Shown here: in pieces, positions 6,114-40,043 of the stretch
Layout: every line of letters starts with the position of its first letter
How positions within the stretch are numbered: the first letter of the stretch is position 1
DNA from: Bacillota bacterium
GTDB lineage: Bacteria > Bacillota > UBA994
NCBI GenBank assembly: GCA_018333655.1
Contig: JAGXTJ010000024.1
Location: 1 to 40,043 of the forward strand
DNA length: 40,043 nt
Reading direction: 5' to 3'
Made by a program: the position numbers and the translations under genes
The notes under the pieces: model-generated
Database searches by the model: none
Told to the model about the DNA's origin: nothing
The model's input: the letters and a program-made list of their open reading frames with translations, nothing else

Positions 6114-6262
6114 GGGTAGGAGCCGATTTCAACCACAGAGTACACAGAGGCGTGGAAAAGAGAGGAACAAGGAACGAGCACATCTAACTTAACTCAAATG
6201 TACTTAACTCCTTGTTTCTCTGTGACCTCTGTGTACTCTGTGGTAAAAAACGCGCCTTCCCC
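6114..6262. repeat. Dispersed 'CACAGAG' palindromic element, full copy
   Basis: The 19-bp arms ACCACAGAGTACACAGAGG (6132-6150) and CCTCTGTGTACTCTGTGGT (6226-6244) are perfect reverse complements. The left flank (GAGCCGATTTCA) and right flank (AAAAAACGCGCCTTCCCC) recur in the copies at 39791-40043. The centre, between GAACAAGGAA and CTCCTTGTTTCTCT, is variable. Copies in several intergenic gaps suggest a non-coding, MITE- or REP-like element. I see no gene in it. Confidence 0.8.
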
Positions 6263-6263
6263 T

Positions 6264-6361
6264 CTCTAACCTCTAATTTCCAATCTCTAACCTCTAGTTA
6301 TGTACTCTGTGGTAAAAAACGTGCTTTCCCTGCTCCTGCTTCTTATCTCTTGCTTCTTGCC
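6264..6361. repeat. Heptamer arrays and a partial right-end copy of the palindrome
   Basis: Three pieces lie in a row. 6264-6298 holds five in-phase 7-mers (CTCTAAC, CTCTAAT, TTCCAAT, CTCTAAC, CTCTAGT). 6301-6330 repeats the palindrome's right end (TGTACTCTGTGGTAAAAAAC). 6341-6361 holds three units TCTTATC, TCTTGCT, TCTTGCC, like the array at 644-734. Open frames through here are low-complexity and not credible genes. Confidence 0.65.
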
Positions 6362-32521: not shown

Positions 32522-32554
32522 AAGGTGGTAATGGTACCGAGAGGAGAGCTTAAA

Positions 32555-35500
32555 ATGCCTCACCCCCGACATAGGAGCAGTAAAGTGCTGTGTGCCCTGC
32601 TCGTAACCCTGCTAGTGTTCGCTACCGCTGCCCACCCCCTGCGGGTGGAGGCCGCTGCCGTGACCCATGTTACAGCGACTCCTACTACTCTTAGTTTGCT
32701 TGTTGGGGGCACAGCTACTGTGGTGGCGACAGTGCACCCCGCGCACGCCGTTGACCGATTGGTTAATTGGGGGAGCAACAACGTCGGCGTGGCCACTGTG
32801 AATAGTACGGGGGTAGTCACGGGGCAAGCGCCCGGCTTGGCTATCATTACTGCTACGACTAGGGACGGCGCGCACACGGCGAGTGTAGCTGTTTCTGTTG
32901 CGACGCAGCCAGTACGCGTGACCGGCGTAACTTTGAACGCAGCAAACCTAAACTTGGTCGTTGGGGCGACCTGGTCTATAGGTGCTACCGTCAGCCCGGC
33001 TAACGCCAGTAACCCAGCCGTAGTATGGTCGAGCAGTAATGCGGCAGTGGCGTCGGTTAATGTGCATGGCCTAGTGACAGCGGTGGCGCCTGGCCTTGCT
33101 ATCATTACCGTGCGCACGCAGGACGGCAACTTTACCGCGCAGGTGGTTGTCGAGGTGGCTGCCCTTTTTATCCCCCCGACGGGCGTTAATATAACCCCCG
33201 CCACCCTAAACTTAGCTATTGGGGCGAGTGGGACTTTGTCGGCCTTAGTTTTGCCCCATAACGCCACCAACCGCTCTGTGGTCTGGGCCAGCCTGACCCC
33301 CTTGGTGGCGCAGGTTAGTGCTACAGGCGTAGTTACCGCGATTGCTCCCGGTGTGGCTTCTATTGTGGCGAGAACGCAGGATGGCACGCAAGAGGATACT
33401 GCCACAGTCACCGTGCCCGTGCCGGCTATTCCGGTCACTGGGATTACTACGCCGCCGGGCGTGGTCGCCATGACGACAGGCACGACGCGCACGATTACGG
33501 CAACTATACTGCCGGCTAATGCCACTATACGCCTGGTTAGGTGGGCCAGTAACAACCCCTTCGTGGCTACCGTTAACGCGACTGGCGTGGTTACCCCCGT
33601 CGCCCCAGGTACAGCACATATATCGGTCACCACTTTGGACGGGGGCTTTGTGGCCTGGGTAGAGGTGCAAGTTAGCATGCCCGTAGTGCCTGTTACTGGC
33701 GTGACCATGGCGCCCACCACGCTGAGCCTGGTAGCTGGGCATACGGGTGGTTTAGCGGCTACTGTCGCCCCGGCCAATGCCACTAACCGCCTAGTAACTT
33801 GGGCGAGTAGCAACACCCAGGTGGCGTTGGTGGACGCCAATGGGGTAGTCTTCGCCATCGCCCCGGGCACTGCGACCATAACGGCGCGCACCACAGATGG
33901 TGGGCGCACGGCGACGGCGGCGGTTACTGTTACAGCGCCCGTGGTTTTAGTAACCGGCGTGACCATTGCGCCTGCGACACTTAGCCTGGTAACTGGGCAG
34001 ACCGGCACTTTAGCGGCTACTGTCGCCCCGGCTAACGCCACTAACCGCCTAGTAACTTGGGCGAGCAGTAATACGCAGGTGGCCACGGTTAACGACAGCG
34101 GGGTAGTGACGGCACGCGCCCCGGGCACTGCGACCATAACGGCGCGCACCACAGATGGCGGGCGCACGGCGACGGCGGCGGTTACTGTGGCGTCGCCTGT
34201 TGTCGTAGTCACTGGCGTGACTATTGCGCCCACAACTCTAAGTCTAGTGGCTGGGCAGACCGGCACTTTAGTCGCCACTGTCGCCCCGGCGAACGCCACT
34301 AACCGCACGGTGACCTGGGCGAGTGGCAACACACAGGTGGCGACAGTAAATGCCAGCGGCGTAGTGACCGCGGTGGCCCCGGGGCTGACCACCATAACCG
34401 TAACGACGAGCGATGGTGGGCGTAGCGCGAGTACCGCTGTCTCGGTAGCCCCGCGCCCCATTTTGGCCACGGGTGTCGCCCTCTTGCCGGCTAACCTGCA
34501 GCTTGCCCGCGGGCAGGTGGGCCACTTGGTGGCCACCGTGCTGCCAGAGAACGCTGCCAACAGGGCCGTGTCTTTTGCCAGCAGCAATGCGAGCGTGGCT
34601 ACGGTAGACGAGCGCGGCGCGGTGACGGCGCTAGCGCTAGGCACAGCGACGATTACCGTCACCACCGCCGAGGGCGGGCACACCGCCGAGAGCCGAGTGG
34701 TAGTGGGGCCGCCGCGAGTGGAGACGAACATAGCTGTTGACACCGTAACTGCCTTAAGTTTGCCTGATTATGCCGATGTACTGGTGCCGGCGGGCGCGAT
34801 TAGCGGCGTAAATGCCCGGCTGATAGCCGAAGTGGTGCCCCCGCTGGAGGCGGCGCCCTTGCTTGCCGCTGCCAGCCGTGCCAACTTGGTGCCGGCCAGT
34901 GAAATAGTGCAGCTCACTTTAAGCGGGGGCACTGTCAACAGGGCGGTGCACCTGGCGCAGCGCTTTACGGCTGCAGCGATGGCCGCAGGGCAGCTGCCGG
35001 CTATTCATGTCTACAATCCCCGCACGGCAAGATGGGTTTACCTAGGCGGTACTGTGACCGACCGGGTAGTGACTGTGCCGCTAGATGCCTTTGGGCAGTT
35101 CGCCGTCTTTGCCACCCGAGGGGCACCAGCCCTGCCAGACATGGCTGGGCACTGGGCCGAGGTGCCTGTAAGGACACTAGCCGGCATGCACATTGTGGGT
35201 GGGCATAGAGACGGCAATTTTAGGCCCGATGCTGTTATTAGCCGGGCAGAATTTGTGGCTATGCTTACGCGCGCGCTAGGCCTGCCCGAGAACGCGCGGG
35301 CTGCAGAGCGCTTTCGCGATGCCGCTACCTTTAGTTGGGCGGCGGGCGCCATTGGCGCGGCGGCAGAGGCCGGCCTGGTGGGGGGTAATGCTGATGGCAC
35401 CTTTTCACCCGAACGTCGCATAACCCGGGCCGAGCTCGCGGTCATTATGTCGCGCGTGGTGCAGCAGGGGCTAGTGACAGTGCCGCGCGTGCCTAGCGTA

Positions 35501-35668
35501 AATTTTGCCGACCAGCAGAGCATACCAGCCTGGGCGCAAGGCGGTGTGCGCATAGCGGCTGAGGCGGGCCTTGTGCAGGGCTCGGGCGATGGTAGGTTTA
35601 ACCCGCATAATTTAGCCACGCGGGCGGAGGTAGCCACCATGCTCTACCGCCTGGTGGCAGCGAAATAG
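32555..35668 (+). CDS. Cell-wall-anchored protein: eight BIG2 Ig-like repeats and three SLH domains
   Basis: The 1037 residues start with a signal peptide (cleavage near RVEAAA, residue 35). Eight BIG2 repeats of 82-86 residues follow (about 36-710), each with the pattern VTGVTxxPxTLxLxxGxTxT, then ATVNxxGVVTAxAPG. A unique domain (about 710-850) precedes three SLH domains (855 to end): DMAGHWAE...GHRDGNFRPD, FSWAAGAI...GNADGTFSPE and IPAWAQGG...GSGDGRFNPH, each with an (I/T)RAE motif. SLH domains bind pyruvylated wall polymers, so the protein stands on the cell surface with the Ig repeats as a stalk. The start ATG at 32555 follows GAGGAG by 8 bases; a longer GTG reading at 32525 is less likely. 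A long open frame on the opposite strand is a composition artefact. Confidence 0.93.
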   Translation: MPHPRHRSSKVLCALLVTLLVFATAAHPLRVEAAAVTHVTATPTTLSLLVGGTATVVATVHPAHAVDRLVNWGSNNVGVATVNSTGVVTGQAPGLAIITATTRDGAHTASVAVSVATQPVRVTGVTLNAANLNLVVGATWSIGATVSPANASNPAVVWSSSNAAVASVNVHGLVTAVAPGLAIITVRTQDGNFTAQVVVEVAALFIPPTGVNITPATLNLAIGASGTLSALVLPHNATNRSVVWASLTPLVAQVSATGVVTAIAPGVASIVARTQDGTQEDTATVTVPVPAIPVTGITTPPGVVAMTTGTTRTITATILPANATIRLVRWASNNPFVATVNATGVVTPVAPGTAHISVTTLDGGFVAWVEVQVSMPVVPVTGVTMAPTTLSLVAGHTGGLAATVAPANATNRLVTWASSNTQVALVDANGVVFAIAPGTATITARTTDGGRTATAAVTVTAPVVLVTGVTIAPATLSLVTGQTGTLAATVAPANATNRLVTWASSNTQVATVNDSGVVTARAPGTATITARTTDGGRTATAAVTVASPVVVVTGVTIAPTTLSLVAGQTGTLVATVAPANATNRTVTWASGNTQVATVNASGVVTAVAPGLTTITVTTSDGGRSASTAVSVAPRPILATGVALLPANLQLARGQVGHLVATVLPENAANRAVSFASSNASVATVDERGAVTALALGTATITVTTAEGGHTAESRVVVGPPRVETNIAVDTVTALSLPDYADVLVPAGAISGVNARLIAEVVPPLEAAPLLAAASRANLVPASEIVQLTLSGGTVNRAVHLAQRFTAAAMAAGQLPAIHVYNPRTARWVYLGGTVTDRVVTVPLDAFGQFAVFATRGAPALPDMAGHWAEVPVRTLAGMHIVGGHRDGNFRPDAVISRAEFVAMLTRALGLPENARAAERFRDAATFSWAAGAIGAAAEAGLVGGNADGTFSPERRITRAELAVIMSRVVQQGLVTVPRVPSVNFADQQSIPAWAQGGVRIAAEAGLVQGSGDGRFNPHNLATRAEVATMLYRLVAAK
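33692..34465. repeat. 258-bp tandem DNA repeats inside the BIG2 region (repeats 5-7)
   Basis: Three units start at 33692, 33950 and 34208, an exact 258-bp period, and share long nucleotide stretches such as ACTGTCGCCCCGGC and ACTTGGGCGAG. Repeats 1-4 and 8 keep the protein pattern but are diverged in DNA. This points to recent duplication or gene conversion. Confidence 0.8.
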
Positions 35669-35711: not shown

Positions 35712-37124
35712 ATGACTTTGCCGTGCAAAATGACATTTCGCGAAGTGCTTAATGTGCTGGGCGTACTGCTCGGCCTAGGCGTGGCACGGCTCGCGCCTCT
35801 GCCTGGCCTTGAAGTCGAGGCGATGTGGGCGCTCGGCCTCTTGGTCTGGGCCATTTGCGCCTGGGTGGGGCAGGTGCTTGACGACTATGTGGTGGCGCTA
35901 CTGATGGCCGTGGGGTGGATAGCCCTCGGCATAGTGCCGCTAGAAGTGGCCTTTGCCACCTTCCACAGCCGCACTTGGTGGCTCTTGGTGGGGGCGTTAG
36001 GGCTTGGTGCGGCAGTGGCTAAGAGTGGGCTCTTAAAACGCACCACCCTCCTTATGCTCTCCGTCATGCCGGCCAGTTACTTAGGGCAGGCGCTGGCCCT
36101 TTTTGCTACGGGGGTGCTGGTCTGCCCTGCCATACCAAGCGTCACCGCCAAGGTAGCCATCACCGGCAAATTTATACCTGCGCTGGCCGAAGGCCTAGGC
36201 TGCGACGAAAAAAGCCGCGGCAGCGCGGGGCTTTTCTTGGCCATGTACCTAGGCTTTGTGCTGGCGGCACCCATGTACATGACGGCCACTAGCACTAATC
36301 TATTCTTGGTGGAGCTACTGCCGGCCCACGAGGCGAGCCGCATGACCTGGCTCTTTTGGCTGCGTGCGGCGACGCCCCCTGTGCTCTTGGCGGCCGTACT
36401 GGGCCTTGGGGCCATTATGCTGCTCTTTAAGCCGCAAGGCGGCAGAGCCGCCGATAAGGCGCGCGTGGTAGCAGACCTGAGGGCGCTCGGCCCCCTTAGC
36501 CGCTCTGAGAAAATAACTCTCGTTCTTTTGCTTAGCGCCCTGCTGGCATGGATTACCGAGAGCTGGCATGGCCAGCACCCTGCCACGGTGGCCCTAGCGG
36601 CCCTAGCCCTACTTTTGGCGAGCAAGGCCATGGATAAAAAGACCTTTCATGCCGATGTAGGCTGGTCGTCGCTTATCTTTCTCGGGGTCATCCTTAATGT
36701 GGCACAGGTCTTTCAGCGCCTGCGCATTGACGCCTTTTTGGGCGAGCAGCTACTGCCCTTACTTACTCCCCTCATGGGGCAAGTCTACCTTTTTGCGGCC
36801 CTGCTCATGCTGCTTACCATGCTGCTGCGCTTTGTCATGGTTTCTATAAATGCTCTTTTGGCACTGCTGATGCTTATACTGCTGCCGGCAGCGCAAGCGG
36901 CGGGCATGAGCGCCTGGGCGCTCGGCATGATTATTCACTTGGCGGCGCATGCGGTCTTTGTTATGCTCTACCAAAACATCGTCTATGCCGTGGGCTACGA
37001 GGCGGCAGAGGGCAAGGCCATAACCGAGGCCGATGGCGCGCTGTTTTCGCTCGTCTTTGCGGGCATTTCTTTTGTGTCGGTACTGCTCTTTTTGCCCTAC
37101 TGGCGTTACCTCGGCCTGCTGTAG
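35712..37124 (+). CDS. SLC13/DASS family anion transporter
   Basis: The 470-residue membrane protein has about 11-12 hydrophobic segments and the features of sodium-coupled dicarboxylate/sulfate symporters (ArsB/NhaD-like fold). TFHSRTWWLLVGALGLGAAV and TATSTNLFLVELL are visible; the second resembles the SNT-type substrate motif. The substrate is unknown; dicarboxylates or sulfate are typical. Start choice is unsure: AGGGGG (35705-35710) is one base from the ATG at 35712 but 7 bases from an in-frame TTG at 35718, and another ATG lies at 35730. It is followed by a terminator and seems to be a single-gene unit. Confidence 0.8.
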   Translation: MTLPCKMTFREVLNVLGVLLGLGVARLAPLPGLEVEAMWALGLLVWAICAWVGQVLDDYVVALLMAVGWIALGIVPLEVAFATFHSRTWWLLVGALGLGAAVAKSGLLKRTTLLMLSVMPASYLGQALALFATGVLVCPAIPSVTAKVAITGKFIPALAEGLGCDEKSRGSAGLFLAMYLGFVLAAPMYMTATSTNLFLVELLPAHEASRMTWLFWLRAATPPVLLAAVLGLGAIMLLFKPQGGRAADKARVVADLRALGPLSRSEKITLVLLLSALLAWITESWHGQHPATVALAALALLLASKAMDKKTFHADVGWSSLIFLGVILNVAQVFQRLRIDAFLGEQLLPLLTPLMGQVYLFAALLMLLTMLLRFVMVSINALLALLMLILLPAAQAAGMSAWALGMIIHLAAHAVFVMLYQNIVYAVGYEAAEGKAITEADGALFSLVFAGISFVSVLLFLPYWRYLGLL

Positions 37125-37172: not shown

Positions 37173-37214
37173 TTGCATCTTGGGCTTTCTGTGTTAAAAT
37201 GTACTTGTATACAA
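37173..37214 (+). promoter_or_regulatory. Promoter and palindromic operator for the regulator / acyl-reductase operon
   Basis: TTGCAT (37173-37178), 16-base spacer, TAAAAT (37195-37200). Four bases after the -10 box is a perfect 10-bp palindrome, TTGTATACAA (37205-37214), over the likely transcription start. A repressor there would block initiation. The first gene of the operon encodes an HTH protein, so autoregulation is the simple reading. Confidence 0.6.
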
Positions 37215-37240
37215 AACAGTGCACAAGGGGAGTCGGCAGT

Positions 37241-37765
37241 ATGGGCTATATCAGAATTGGCGACAAACTAGTCAGCCGCGAGAAAATTATGCGCATGGTC
37301 GACAAGGTGCTAGAGCGTCGCGCCTCTGGCCTGTCGCAGCAAGAGGTGGCGGGCGACTTAGGGCTTGACCGCAGCTTTATTTCGCGCTTAGAGACTTTGG
37401 GCGAGCTACGCAAGGGCGGCAAAATTTCGCTCATTGGCTTTCCGGTGGGCAACAAAGACGAGCTCACCCTAGTGGCGGAGGAGTATGGCGTAGACCATGT
37501 CTACTTGCTGACCGAGGCCGAGCGCTGGGCGCTTATTCGCGAGCGCAGCGGGGCGGAGCTACTGAACGAAATAATGGGGCTCCTTGGGGCACTGCGCGCC
37601 TTTGACACGGTTATTTTAATCGGTTCAGATATGCGCATAAAGCTGGCGGAGGCGCTGGTAGACAAACAGATTATACCGATATACATTGGCGCCTCGCCCA
37701 TCCGTGAAGACAAGTATGTAGACCCGAGCGAGCTACGCGCGGTGCTTGCGGGGCTGCGCTACTAG
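37241..37765 (+). CDS. Helix-turn-helix transcriptional regulator (first gene of the reductase operon)
   Basis: The 174 residues have an HTH at about 30-55 (LSQQEVAGDLGLDRSFISRL), of the lambda-repressor/XRE-like kind. A C-terminal alpha/beta domain follows, with KISLIGFPVGN, VDHVYLLTEAERW, FDTVILIGSDMRI and QIIPIYIGASPI, whose alternating strands suggest a ligand- or nucleotide-binding sensor. The ATG at 37241 follows AAGGGGAG by about 8 bases; the frame is open further upstream across the operator. The next gene starts 11 bases after its stop. I know this type of protein only as an uncharacterised neighbour of 'quinate dehydrogenase' genes. Confidence 0.7.
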   Translation: MGYIRIGDKLVSREKIMRMVDKVLERRASGLSQQEVAGDLGLDRSFISRLETLGELRKGGKISLIGFPVGNKDELTLVAEEYGVDHVYLLTEAERWALIRERSGAELLNEIMGLLGALRAFDTVILIGSDMRIKLAEALVDKQIIPIYIGASPIREDKYVDPSELRAVLAGLRY

Positions 37766-37776
37766 GGGGTAAGGCT

Positions 37777-38682
37777 ATGAAGACAATTATTAGCGTGAGT
37801 CTAGGTTCAAGCAAGCGCGACCACCGCGTCGAGGTGGAGCTTTTGGGCGAGCATTGCGTTATTGAGCGCATCGGCACCGACGGCGACTTAGGGCGTGCCG
37901 TTGCGCTTATTAGGCAGCTAGACGGCAAGGTAGATGCTTTTGGCATGGGCGGCATCGATCTCTACGTGCAGGCTGGCGGCAAGAGGTACATCTTGCGCGA
38001 GGCCAGGCAACTAGCAGCAGCAGCCCAAATTACGCCCATTGTCGACGGTACCGGCCTTAAAAACACCCTGGAGCGTAAGGCCGTGCGCTATCTAAACGAT
38101 GTTTGCGGCGTCGCCATCAAGGGCACCCCGGTGCTTATAGTCTCGGCGGCGGACCGCTTTGGCATGGCCGAGACCTTAGCCGGGCTTGGCGCCAAGCTCA
38201 CCCTAGGTGACCTTATCTTCACGGTCGGCCTGCCCGTGCCGCTCTACAGCCTGCGCGCACTAGGGGCGGCGGCTAAAGTTCTAGCGCCCCTACTGACACA
38301 GCTACCCATAAGGTACCTCTATCCCTCGGGTGCGGACCAAGAAAGGTCTGTTTCTCGCGGCGCAAAGTATTTCTATGAAAATAAAATTATTGCGGGTGAC
38401 TTTCACTTTATACGACGCTACATGCCGGATGGCTGTCAGGGCAAAATTGTCATTACCAATACGGTCACCAAGCAAGACCTCGAGTGGCTCAAGCAAAAAG
38501 GCGTGCGCCTCTTAGTCACTACCACGCCCGAGCTTGACGGACGTTCCTTTGGTACTAATGTCATGGAGGCGCTGTTGGTGGCATTGTCGGGCCAGAAGGA
38601 CGCCAATTTAAGTGCCGGGGAGTACGAAGTTCTCTTAGACAGGCTAGATTTCAAGCCTCGCGTCGTCGAGCTAGGCTCGTAG
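37777..38682 (+). CDS. Protein of the type annotated 'quinate 5-dehydrogenase' (function unproven)
   Basis: The 301 residues start MKTIISVSLGSSKRDHRVEV and contain FGMGGIDLYVQAGGKRYILR, TPIVDGTGLKNTLERKAVRY and ADRFGMAETLAGLGAKLTLGD. Further on are KYFYENKIIAGDFHFIRRYM and LVTTTPELDGRSFGTNVMEA. There is no clear GxGxxG nucleotide-binding loop, so the dehydrogenase label that databases give such proteins is doubtful. The ATG follows AGGGGGT that overlaps the previous stop. The next gene's ribosome site starts 6 bases after this stop, so all three genes form one tight operon. It may prepare or deliver a substrate for the reductase; that is a guess. Confidence 0.6.
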   Translation: MKTIISVSLGSSKRDHRVEVELLGEHCVIERIGTDGDLGRAVALIRQLDGKVDAFGMGGIDLYVQAGGKRYILREARQLAAAAQITPIVDGTGLKNTLERKAVRYLNDVCGVAIKGTPVLIVSAADRFGMAETLAGLGAKLTLGDLIFTVGLPVPLYSLRALGAAAKVLAPLLTQLPIRYLYPSGADQERSVSRGAKYFYENKIIAGDFHFIRRYMPDGCQGKIVITNTVTKQDLEWLKQKGVRLLVTTTPELDGRSFGTNVMEALLVALSGQKDANLSAGEYEVLLDRLDFKPRVVELGS

Positions 38683-38705
38683 TGGTTAGAGAGGTGGAAA
38701 AGAAA

Positions 38706-39782
38706 ATGCGCAAATTTGCCTTTATACTGCACCCCATCGTAGCAGACGACATCGCTCGCAAGTTTAAGTTTACCGCCAAATGGTCTGACGTGTGGAAAGA
38801 GAGGCTAGTCAGGCTGCTGCCGCCTCTTAAGGTTTCGCACATTACCGGCATTAAGTCTGACCACGCCGAGGTTGAGGGGTACTTTGTGGCCTGCCCGCTT
38901 ACCTCGCGGCAGCTCTTAGGCGCTGTTTCCGCCGCAGAAGCGACCAAGAAGATTGTGCAGGCGGGGCGCATTGCAGAGAACTTGGGTGCTGAGATAGTAG
39001 GCTTAGGTGCGCTTACCTCTGTGGTGGGGGATGCCGGCATTACCGTGGCCGACAAGCTTAAAATTGGCGTAACTACCGGCAATAGCTACACCGTGGCCAC
39101 AGCCCTGATGGCCTCGCGCTTGGCGGCGGCTAAAATGGGCGTTGACGTCAAGCAGGCTCATGTGGCGGTTGTCGGCGCGACGGGCAGCATCGGGCAGGTT
39201 TGTGCCAGGCTTATGGCCAAAGAGGCCGGTCGCATAACGCTACTGGCACGCAACTTAGAGAGGCTTGAAGTAGTTAAAGAAAAAATCGCCGCAGAAAGCG
39301 GCGTCAATGCTACAGTCTCGCGCGATATTGACGAGAGCCTTAAAACGGCCGATATCGTTATCGCCGTTACCAGCGCCCTAGACTTTGTGGTCGACCCGCG
39401 CGTGCTCAAGCCCGGCGCTATCGTCTGCGACGTAGCGCGCCCGCGCGATGTTTCAGAAGAAGTGGCAAAACTGCGTGACGATGTGCTCATAGTAGACGGC
39501 GGCGTGGTTGCCGTGCCGGGGCCGGTCGATTTTCGCTTTAACTTTGGTTTTCCCCCCCGCACGGCCTATGCCTGCATGGCAGAGACGATGCTCTTGGCGC
39601 TTGAGGGCAAAATGGGCGACTATTCTTTAGGTAGAGATATTAAACTAGAACAAGTAGAAGAAATTACTCGCTTGGCCGAAAAGCATGGCTTCAAACTAGC
39701 CGGGTTCCGCAGCTTCGAACGCGCCGTGAGCGACGAAACGATCGCTGCCATCCGCGCACGCGCCGCAGCCAAGAATAAATAG
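38706..39782 (+). CDS. Acyl-ACP reductase-like NAD(P)H-dependent reductase
   Basis: The 358 residues closely follow cyanobacterial long-chain acyl-[ACP] reductase (AAR), which makes fatty aldehydes. Shared features are the N-terminal half ending GLGALTSVVGD...TTGNSYTVATAL, the Rossmann loop VAVVGATGSIGQVCARLM, LLARNLERL and IVDGGVVAVPG. The block YACMAETMLLALEG carries C290, matching the acyl-thioester cysteine of AAR (C294 in Synechococcus, in a CFAESMLLEFE context, from memory). The start is the ATG at 38706, 8 bases after AGAGAGGTGG; a GTG at 38682 is possible but overlaps the preceding stop. No aldehyde deformylating oxygenase is nearby. Reaction inferred from family; not proven in this group. 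Confidence 0.72.
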   Translation: MRKFAFILHPIVADDIARKFKFTAKWSDVWKERLVRLLPPLKVSHITGIKSDHAEVEGYFVACPLTSRQLLGAVSAAEATKKIVQAGRIAENLGAEIVGLGALTSVVGDAGITVADKLKIGVTTGNSYTVATALMASRLAAAKMGVDVKQAHVAVVGATGSIGQVCARLMAKEAGRITLLARNLERLEVVKEKIAAESGVNATVSRDIDESLKTADIVIAVTSALDFVVDPRVLKPGAIVCDVARPRDVSEEVAKLRDDVLIVDGGVVAVPGPVDFRFNFGFPPRTAYACMAETMLLALEGKMGDYSLGRDIKLEQVEEITRLAEKHGFKLAGFRSFERAVSDETIAAIRARAAAKNK

Positions 39783-39790
39783 AGGAAAAT

Positions 39791-39936
39791 TGGGAGACGA
39801 TTTCAACCACAGAGGCACAGAGGCGTGGAAAAGAGAGGAAGATGGAACGAGCGTAATTGCTTAATTACACTCTTTCTTTCTCTGTGAACTCTGTGCACTC
39901 TGTGGTAAAAAACGTGCCTTCCCCATGCTACAAGGG
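39791..39936. repeat. Dispersed 'CACAGAG' palindromic element, tandem copy 1
   Basis: This 146-bp unit starts TGGGAGACGATTTCAACCAC and holds left arm ACCACAGAGGCACAGAG and right arm CTCTGTGCACTCTGTGGT, which pair with one bulged base. It shares both ends with the copy at 6114-6262 but has a different centre (TAATTGCTTAATTA, itself palindromic). Confidence 0.85.
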
Positions 39937-40043
39937 TGGGAGACGATTTCAACCACAGAGGCACAGAGGCGTGGAAAAGAGAGGAAGATGGAACGAGCGT
40001 AATTGCTTAATTACACTCTTTCTTTCTCTGTGAACTCTGTGCA
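39937..40043. repeat. Dispersed 'CACAGAG' palindromic element, tandem copy 2 (cut by window edge)
   Basis: Identical base for base to the first 107 bases of the preceding unit, giving an exact 146-bp period. The array may continue beyond the window. No gene is present from 39783 to the end. Confidence 0.85.

Follow-up and report, generated by a model that had tools for sequence, protein, structure and literature searches.

We propose that genes A, B and C, three consecutive and tightly spaced open reading frames on the plus strand of the window (the whole stretch of 40,043 nucleotides that was analysed), are probably the regulatory hub of a long-chain-amine pathway together with its reductase gene, with the aminotransferase predicted at another locus of the genome and controlled by the same operator. 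This reading draws on sequence comparisons across the phylum. The three frames agree with the operon that the initial annotation of this DNA had claimed. B and C are widespread at a conserved housekeeping site, yet the literature and family libraries searched name no function for them. If the proposal holds, a whole group of anaerobes would make long-chain amines as part of their basic physiology, the orphan family B, now under a misleading dehydrogenase label, would gain a function, and there would be an added source of acyl-ACP-to-amine enzymes. The regulator and its operator would then be testable in culturable species such as Thermoanaerobacter wiegelii.

The operon and its neighbourhood

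The positions of the features are given in Table 1. The usual gene order, whole or partial in most genomes, is panC-panD-birA-bioY-coaX-dusB-[A-B-C]-greA-lysS, and across the phylum A-B-C are kept with 45-60% identity, usually flanked by dusB and greA-lysS. Constant linkage of the three genes among relatives had been suggested as something to look for, and this conserved neighbourhood provides it. The carriers are a large group of mostly anaerobic bacteria; those with names are T. wiegelii, Halonatronum, Alkaliphilus, Syntrophomonas and Sporomusaceae, and the nearest are MAGs labelled Bacillota.

The window ends 261 bases after C, which is also the end of its contig (C24). The dispersed repeat found there, with a 107-nt unit recurring at 146-nt spacing, has 29 matches in the window's genome (G000), one of them at window positions 6119-6330. 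greA was not found in this genome (assembly 97% complete). Because relatives have greA-lysS after C and greA is missing from the assembly, the operon very likely runs on past the contig break.

Table 1. Positions of the features discussed, in the window (first six rows) and at related loci.
Feature	Position	Strand	Description
Probable promoter of A	37173..37200	+	TTGCAT (37173-37178), 16 nt, TAAAAT (37195-37200); read from sequence
Operator	37206..37225	+	TGTATACA-aaac-AGTGCACA; two 8-bp palindromic half-sites, 12 bp apart start to start; phylogenetic footprint, about 80/85 loci
Gene A	37241..37765	+	Predicted regulator, N-terminal HTH and C-terminal alpha/beta domain, 174 aa
Gene B	37777..38682	+	301-aa orphan, labelled quinate dehydrogenase-like, strongly conserved
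Gene C	38706..39782	+	Predicted acyl-thioester reductase, PigE/AAR type, 358 aa; predicted catalytic Cys, residue 290
Dispersed repeat	39791..40043	.	Contains the contig break; greA-lysS expected there by synteny
C-slot proteins	L089:4389-5519; L124:2816-3715; L148:6887-7810; L069:10439-11347; L105:6979-7962; L094:7052-8113; L127:6940-7857; L135:1700-2602; L096:6958-7746; L112:3654-4391		Between B and greA
SRPBCC-like gene	L247:6317-6754		After the aminotransferase; relatives at L248-L252, L265, L266

The consensus promoter scan called none in the interval of the probable promoter, which is weak by that scan. An ATG at 37199, upstream of A, precedes the operator and is not conserved, and the start of A was taken as 37241. 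The frame of C is open from 38682; its 358-aa form starts at 38706.

Ahead of A, the window's genus has a DASS-family anion symporter (35712-37124) instead of dusB, and ahead of the symporter a Big_2/SLH surface protein (32525-35668); the usual coaX-dusB neighbours are displaced in this genus. A genome of the same genus (G001) has two operon copies, on C225 and C144, with B 79% and 69% identical; a duplicate or a mixed MAG is possible.

Gene C resembles the reductase half of PigE

C carries GATGSIG at residues 157-163 and YACMAETMLL at 288-297, two motifs already read in the initial annotation, with C290 inside the latter. ACMAETM and C290 are invariant in 21 of 21 aligned orthologues, and the GATGSIG loop varies slightly. 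The NCBIfam PigE model NF053554 matched residues 37-353 (218.6 bits, 1.7e-64) and its full-model cut-off of 850 was not reached, as expected where one half of PigE is present. The match to the AAR model TIGR04058 (125.5 bits, 2.9e-36) was below the curated cut-off of 449.7. The best PDB relatives, with near full-length alignments, were PigE (4ppm, 2.7e-38, residues 28-346) and Synechococcus AAR (6jzq, 6.5e-29). An alignment with AAR structures had been proposed as a check on the assignment: phmmer placed C290 on the catalytic cysteine of SeAAR, as well as on that of PigE (4ppm), and GATGSIG on the nucleotide loop. Entry 6jzz has Ser at the position of C290, in the same alignment column. The active-site residue of AAR is C294 (PMC9743570), and the equivalent cysteine of PigE is C296 (PMC8341465).

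C is therefore acyl-ACP-reductase-like, as first described, in its loop, its cysteine and its full-length alignment, and the PigE reductase half is nearer than AAR. Cyanobacterial AAR (TIGR04058) shares with C the NADPH loop and the catalytic Cys (SeAAR C294) over a full-length alignment, whereas the score of C is far under the AAR cut-off and its genomic partner is an aminotransferase. By sequence, the nearest relative of C is the thioester-reductase domain of PigE, ahead of cyanobacterial AAR.

The sole Pfam match of C was the Rossmann model PF01488 (53 bits, above cut-off), and the shikimate substrate domain was not matched. This shikimate-dehydrogenase-type Rossmann domain explains the dehydrogenase-like labels, and it is the one point in favour of B and C being ordinary shikimate/quinate dehydrogenases. 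We give that reading next to no credence, as C has no shikimate substrate domain and aligns along its whole length with PigE and AAR, its nucleophile at the expected position, and B matches nothing.

A conserved operator covers the presumed start site of gene A

The perfect palindrome noticed earlier at the first promoter is real: TTGTATACAA (37205-37214) forms the left half of TGTATACAaaacAGTGCACA, a longer element whose conservation extends to about 80 of 85 related loci. Its 20-bp consensus, TGTRYACA-N4-TGTGCACA, covers the start site of A in these loci. The count is made up of 71 loci with TGTNNACA-N4-TGTGCACA at 12 or more of the 14 scored positions, and 9 more with other spacing. A TAAAAT-like hexamer stands ahead of the operator in most related loci, and the operator, directly after it, hence covers the start site. 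Since the operator overlaps the start region, A probably represses rather than activates.

The site in the window has one mismatch to TGTRYACANNNNTGTGCACA and is the sole strong site within the window; the chance of a match with at most one mismatch in 150 bp is about 1e-5. A strict-pattern search of the window's genome found only the operator at A. The exact pattern TGTNNACANNNNNGTGCACA was found 28 times among the matches listed in 61 genomes (reversed control, 1) and is nearly single-copy per genome. The operator was found in 109 of 199 genomes, and the reversed control pattern in about 13.

A itself matched HTH_3/HTH_31 weakly in Pfam, and AlphaFold2 predicts a second, C-terminal alpha/beta domain that is without known family. 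The earlier description of A as an HTH protein with a possible sensor domain is thus kept for the HTH on this weak match, and for the second domain as a structure prediction, with sensing as its predicted role. Among 58 members of the A family, HTH_3 was found in 55, HTH_31 in 50 and a weak MarR_2 match in 4, with no hot-dog match among the 25 families listed. No Foldseek match of the A model had an E-value under 0.001. The Bacillota regulators of fatty-acid synthesis, FabT and FapR, are MarR-type and hot-dog-type, respectively. A is like them a local repressor-like protein, with its operator on FAS-II genes in some lineages and not at fabH in the window's genome, and unlike them has an HTH_3/XRE-like domain with an alpha/beta domain.

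The operator recurs at amine- and lipid-related genes

Away from the operon, operator sites immediately precede one of three kinds of gene: a class III aminotransferase, which either stands alone or is fused to a C-like reductase; an alpha-oxoamine synthase; or fabH-fabK. At 35 of the 40 sites that were inspected, A, B, the aminotransferase, the alpha-oxoamine synthase or fabH was no more than about 120 nt away; this sample is not random, as it was picked by eye from the listed sites and includes some operon sites. Matches at L217, L218, L238 and L239, with no regulon gene nearby, were set aside as chance-like.

The best NCBIfam match of the aminotransferase is the PigE aminotransferase domain (4.9e-151). 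The window's genome has its own copy (G000:C44:143042-144304) with TGTGCACGTAGTCGTATACA, two mismatches from the operator, 56 bp upstream. Operator-like sites with two to three mismatches stand at the same gene in family genomes G001, G002, G004, G005 and G007, and the chance per promoter at two or fewer mismatches is 3e-4. Many lineages have a separate aminotransferase with no recognisable operator, which counts against the amine reading. In the window's family, and in two further lineages, a Polyketide_cyc/lipid-transport (SRPBCC-like) gene lies directly 3' of the aminotransferase and is a candidate for a lipid-binding role in the pathway.

In four genomes (G004, G011, G013, G014) the operator is at fabH, followed by fabK; in G004, fabD-, fabG- and acpP-like genes, as read from the sequence, come after them. 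The fabH of the window's own genome has no operator, which counts against our preferred explanation. On this ground we gave up the idea that A is the principal regulator of fatty acids in the window's organism. The autoregulated, lipid-linked operon suggested in the initial annotation agrees with the predicted operator over the start of A and with its presence on fabH-fabK in some relatives.

At five loci (L208, L209, L212, L213, L241) the operator precedes an alpha-oxoamine synthase that has a zinc-dehydrogenase-like gene (MKAVQF...) beside it; the product in these lineages is possibly sphingoid-like or an aminoketone. This synthase subfamily (65% identity) occurs in 2 of 61 genomes, neither of which has a C orthologue or a strong aminotransferase, and is absent from the window's genome (best own match 38%). 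Alpha-oxoamine synthases of the serine palmitoyltransferase/BioF type are not homologous to C and have a different chemistry; in lineages lacking C or a PigE-type aminotransferase they stand under the same operator and would also yield a long-chain amine.

Co-occurrence with the aminotransferase favours an amine product

C orthologues were found in 137 of 299 phylum genomes (nearly half), and B was present in all 137. A separate strong aminotransferase occurred in 118 of the 137 genomes with C and in 17 of the 132 without it (both, 118; C alone, 19; aminotransferase alone, 17; neither, 115). For this table fusion genomes were set aside, the lists were compiled by hand and the counts ignore relatedness; for most of the 17 aminotransferase-only genomes frame lengths are unlisted, and these may be fusions. 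An aminotransferase-reductase fusion was found in 31 of 299 genomes, and a C orthologue accompanies it in only 1 of them. G210 and G291 have the fusion immediately 3' of B, in the C slot. As in TamH, the aminotransferase part comes first in the fused forms of other Bacillota. Counting against an amine product are the 19 genomes with C and no strong aminotransferase match, and 43 genomes with B and neither C nor a strong aminotransferase.

The same data bear on the alternative that C makes fatty aldehyde for ether/vinyl-ether lipids (plasmalogens) or for fatty alcohols, that no amine arises from C, and that the shared operator reflects general lipid regulation by A. Taken alone, C resembles AAR, whose product is an aldehyde, and the operator on fabH-fabK in some lineages suggests that A may be a broad lipid regulator. 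The strong co-occurrence of C with the aminotransferase, the near-constant absence or degeneration of C where the fusion is found, and the operator directly on the aminotransferase gene argue against it, and we regard it as unlikely.

The proposed long-chain-amine pathway

C would accept the acyl chain of acyl-ACP at Cys290 and reduce the bound acyl group with NAD(P)H to the fatty aldehyde, which a PigE/TamH-type class III aminotransferase, encoded elsewhere under the same operator, would convert to the primary long-chain amine. We infer both reactions from homology: PtTamH reduces C12-ACP and aminates the aldehyde to a C12 amine (PMC9594044), and by this homology C and the aminotransferase should make a long-chain amine. 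As the genomic partner of C is an aminotransferase, the likely product is the amine and the aldehyde an intermediate. The suggestion in the initial annotation of a pathway that makes or detects fatty aldehydes is accordingly retained for the likely intermediate and given up for the end point.

A would be the dedicated repressor, with putative binding to the operator over its own start site and, depending on the lineage, at the promoters of the aminotransferase, the alpha-oxoamine synthase or fabH-fabK. Through its C-terminal domain it presumably senses acyl-ACP, lipid or a pathway intermediate. B would be an uncharacterised enzyme or complex partner acting at or after amine formation, present whichever amine-forming enzyme a lineage uses. 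As the oxoamine synthases would also yield long-chain amines, the feature shared by the alternatives would be an amine head on an acyl chain.

More tentatively, an undescribed class of long-chain amines, as free amines, amine-containing membrane lipids or a signal, may be widespread in anaerobic Bacillota, with two routes (acyl-ACP reductase and aminotransferase, or alpha-oxoamine synthase), one dedicated regulator, and B as a new family of enzymes that finishes the product or makes use of it. The literature searched reports no long-chain amine from these organisms; for Firmicutes it yielded nothing of relevance on fatty amines or on relatives of AAR or TamH. The reactions themselves belong to a known type of enzyme chemistry; what we did not find described, in a literature that leaves out most subscription journals, are a regulon spanning the phylum, its operator, the orphan B and the housekeeping location of the genes.

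PigE (prodigiosin) and PtTamH (tambjamine) join a thioester reductase and a class III aminotransferase in one chain. Both halves are present here, with GxxGxxG and the Cys of the reductase half conserved in C, but in the window's genome they are separate genes under one operator. Also unlike PigE/TamH are the housekeeping location, the phylum-wide distribution, the dedicated regulator A, the orphan B and the absence of a pigment cluster. The homologues given in PMC9594044 are only from Pseudoalteromonas, Chitinimonas, Paucibacter and Streptomyces. With PigE and TamH as the nearest characterised relatives of both enzymes (PMC8341465, PMC9594044), a tailoring step in secondary metabolism, as in prodigiosin or tambjamine biosynthesis, could be considered. 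We judge this very unlikely given the phylum-wide presence and chromosomal synteny: the operon sits at a housekeeping site (panC-panD-birA-coaX-dusB / greA-lysS) in most genomes of the phylum, and no pigment gene cluster was seen adjoining A-B-C.

Degenerate proteins in the C slot

In some genomes the interval between B and greA holds proteins of 245-376 aa (Table 1) that look like degraded C, with no nucleophile block and a broken loop, or are too diverged to match C. The degenerate proteins have lost the Cys, and the reductase domains fused to the aminotransferase keep it. It is possible that the former are pseudoenzymes retained as partners of B. Since some lineages keep B without C or a strong aminotransferase, and some keep Cys-less C-slot proteins, catalysis by C is not always needed at the locus.

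One could therefore see the locus as mainly regulatory, B and C (or degenerate C) forming a complex that senses the state of acyl-ACP and signals it to A, with catalysis secondary. This would fit the persistence of Cys-less proteins between B and greA in several lineages, the retention of A and B even where C is absent, and the constant linkage to translation and CoA genes. On the other hand, C is a strongly conserved orthologue in the genomes that carry it, with its catalytic motifs in every aligned sequence, and in at least one case that was checked (G120) the loss of Cys goes together with the transfer of the reductase domain into an aminotransferase fusion. We consider a mainly regulatory locus rather improbable.

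Gene B is a conserved orphan

B had no match in Pfam, NCBIfam or the PDB by single-sequence or profile search. As this includes the nucleotide-binding models of Pfam and NCBIfam, its quinate-dehydrogenase label is unsupported, which justifies the doubt first cast on it. The AlphaFold2 model of B is confident (pLDDT 89, pTM 0.87). Foldseek with this model returned only partial matches (TM <=0.43) to glutamate dehydrogenases, malic enzymes and sugar-binding proteins, and we therefore give B no family. B was found in 224 of 299 phylum genomes (about three quarters), with orthologues 46-79% identical across the phylum. The invariant charged and polar residues, which include K95, E99, D126, R127, D145, D208, R256, N261 and E264, are many, as would be expected of an enzyme.

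Profile comparison rejected B as a paralogue of C, and the viral contigs searched held no relative of B. The Deinococcus family deino9.00587, annotated quinate 5-dehydrogenase, is conserved, of low variability and functionally uncharacterised (PMC9425974); it bears the same label as B, a likeness of name only. Diverged second paralogues of B occur in other gene contexts at L047:8334-9218 (33% identity) and L048:1188-2093 (43%).
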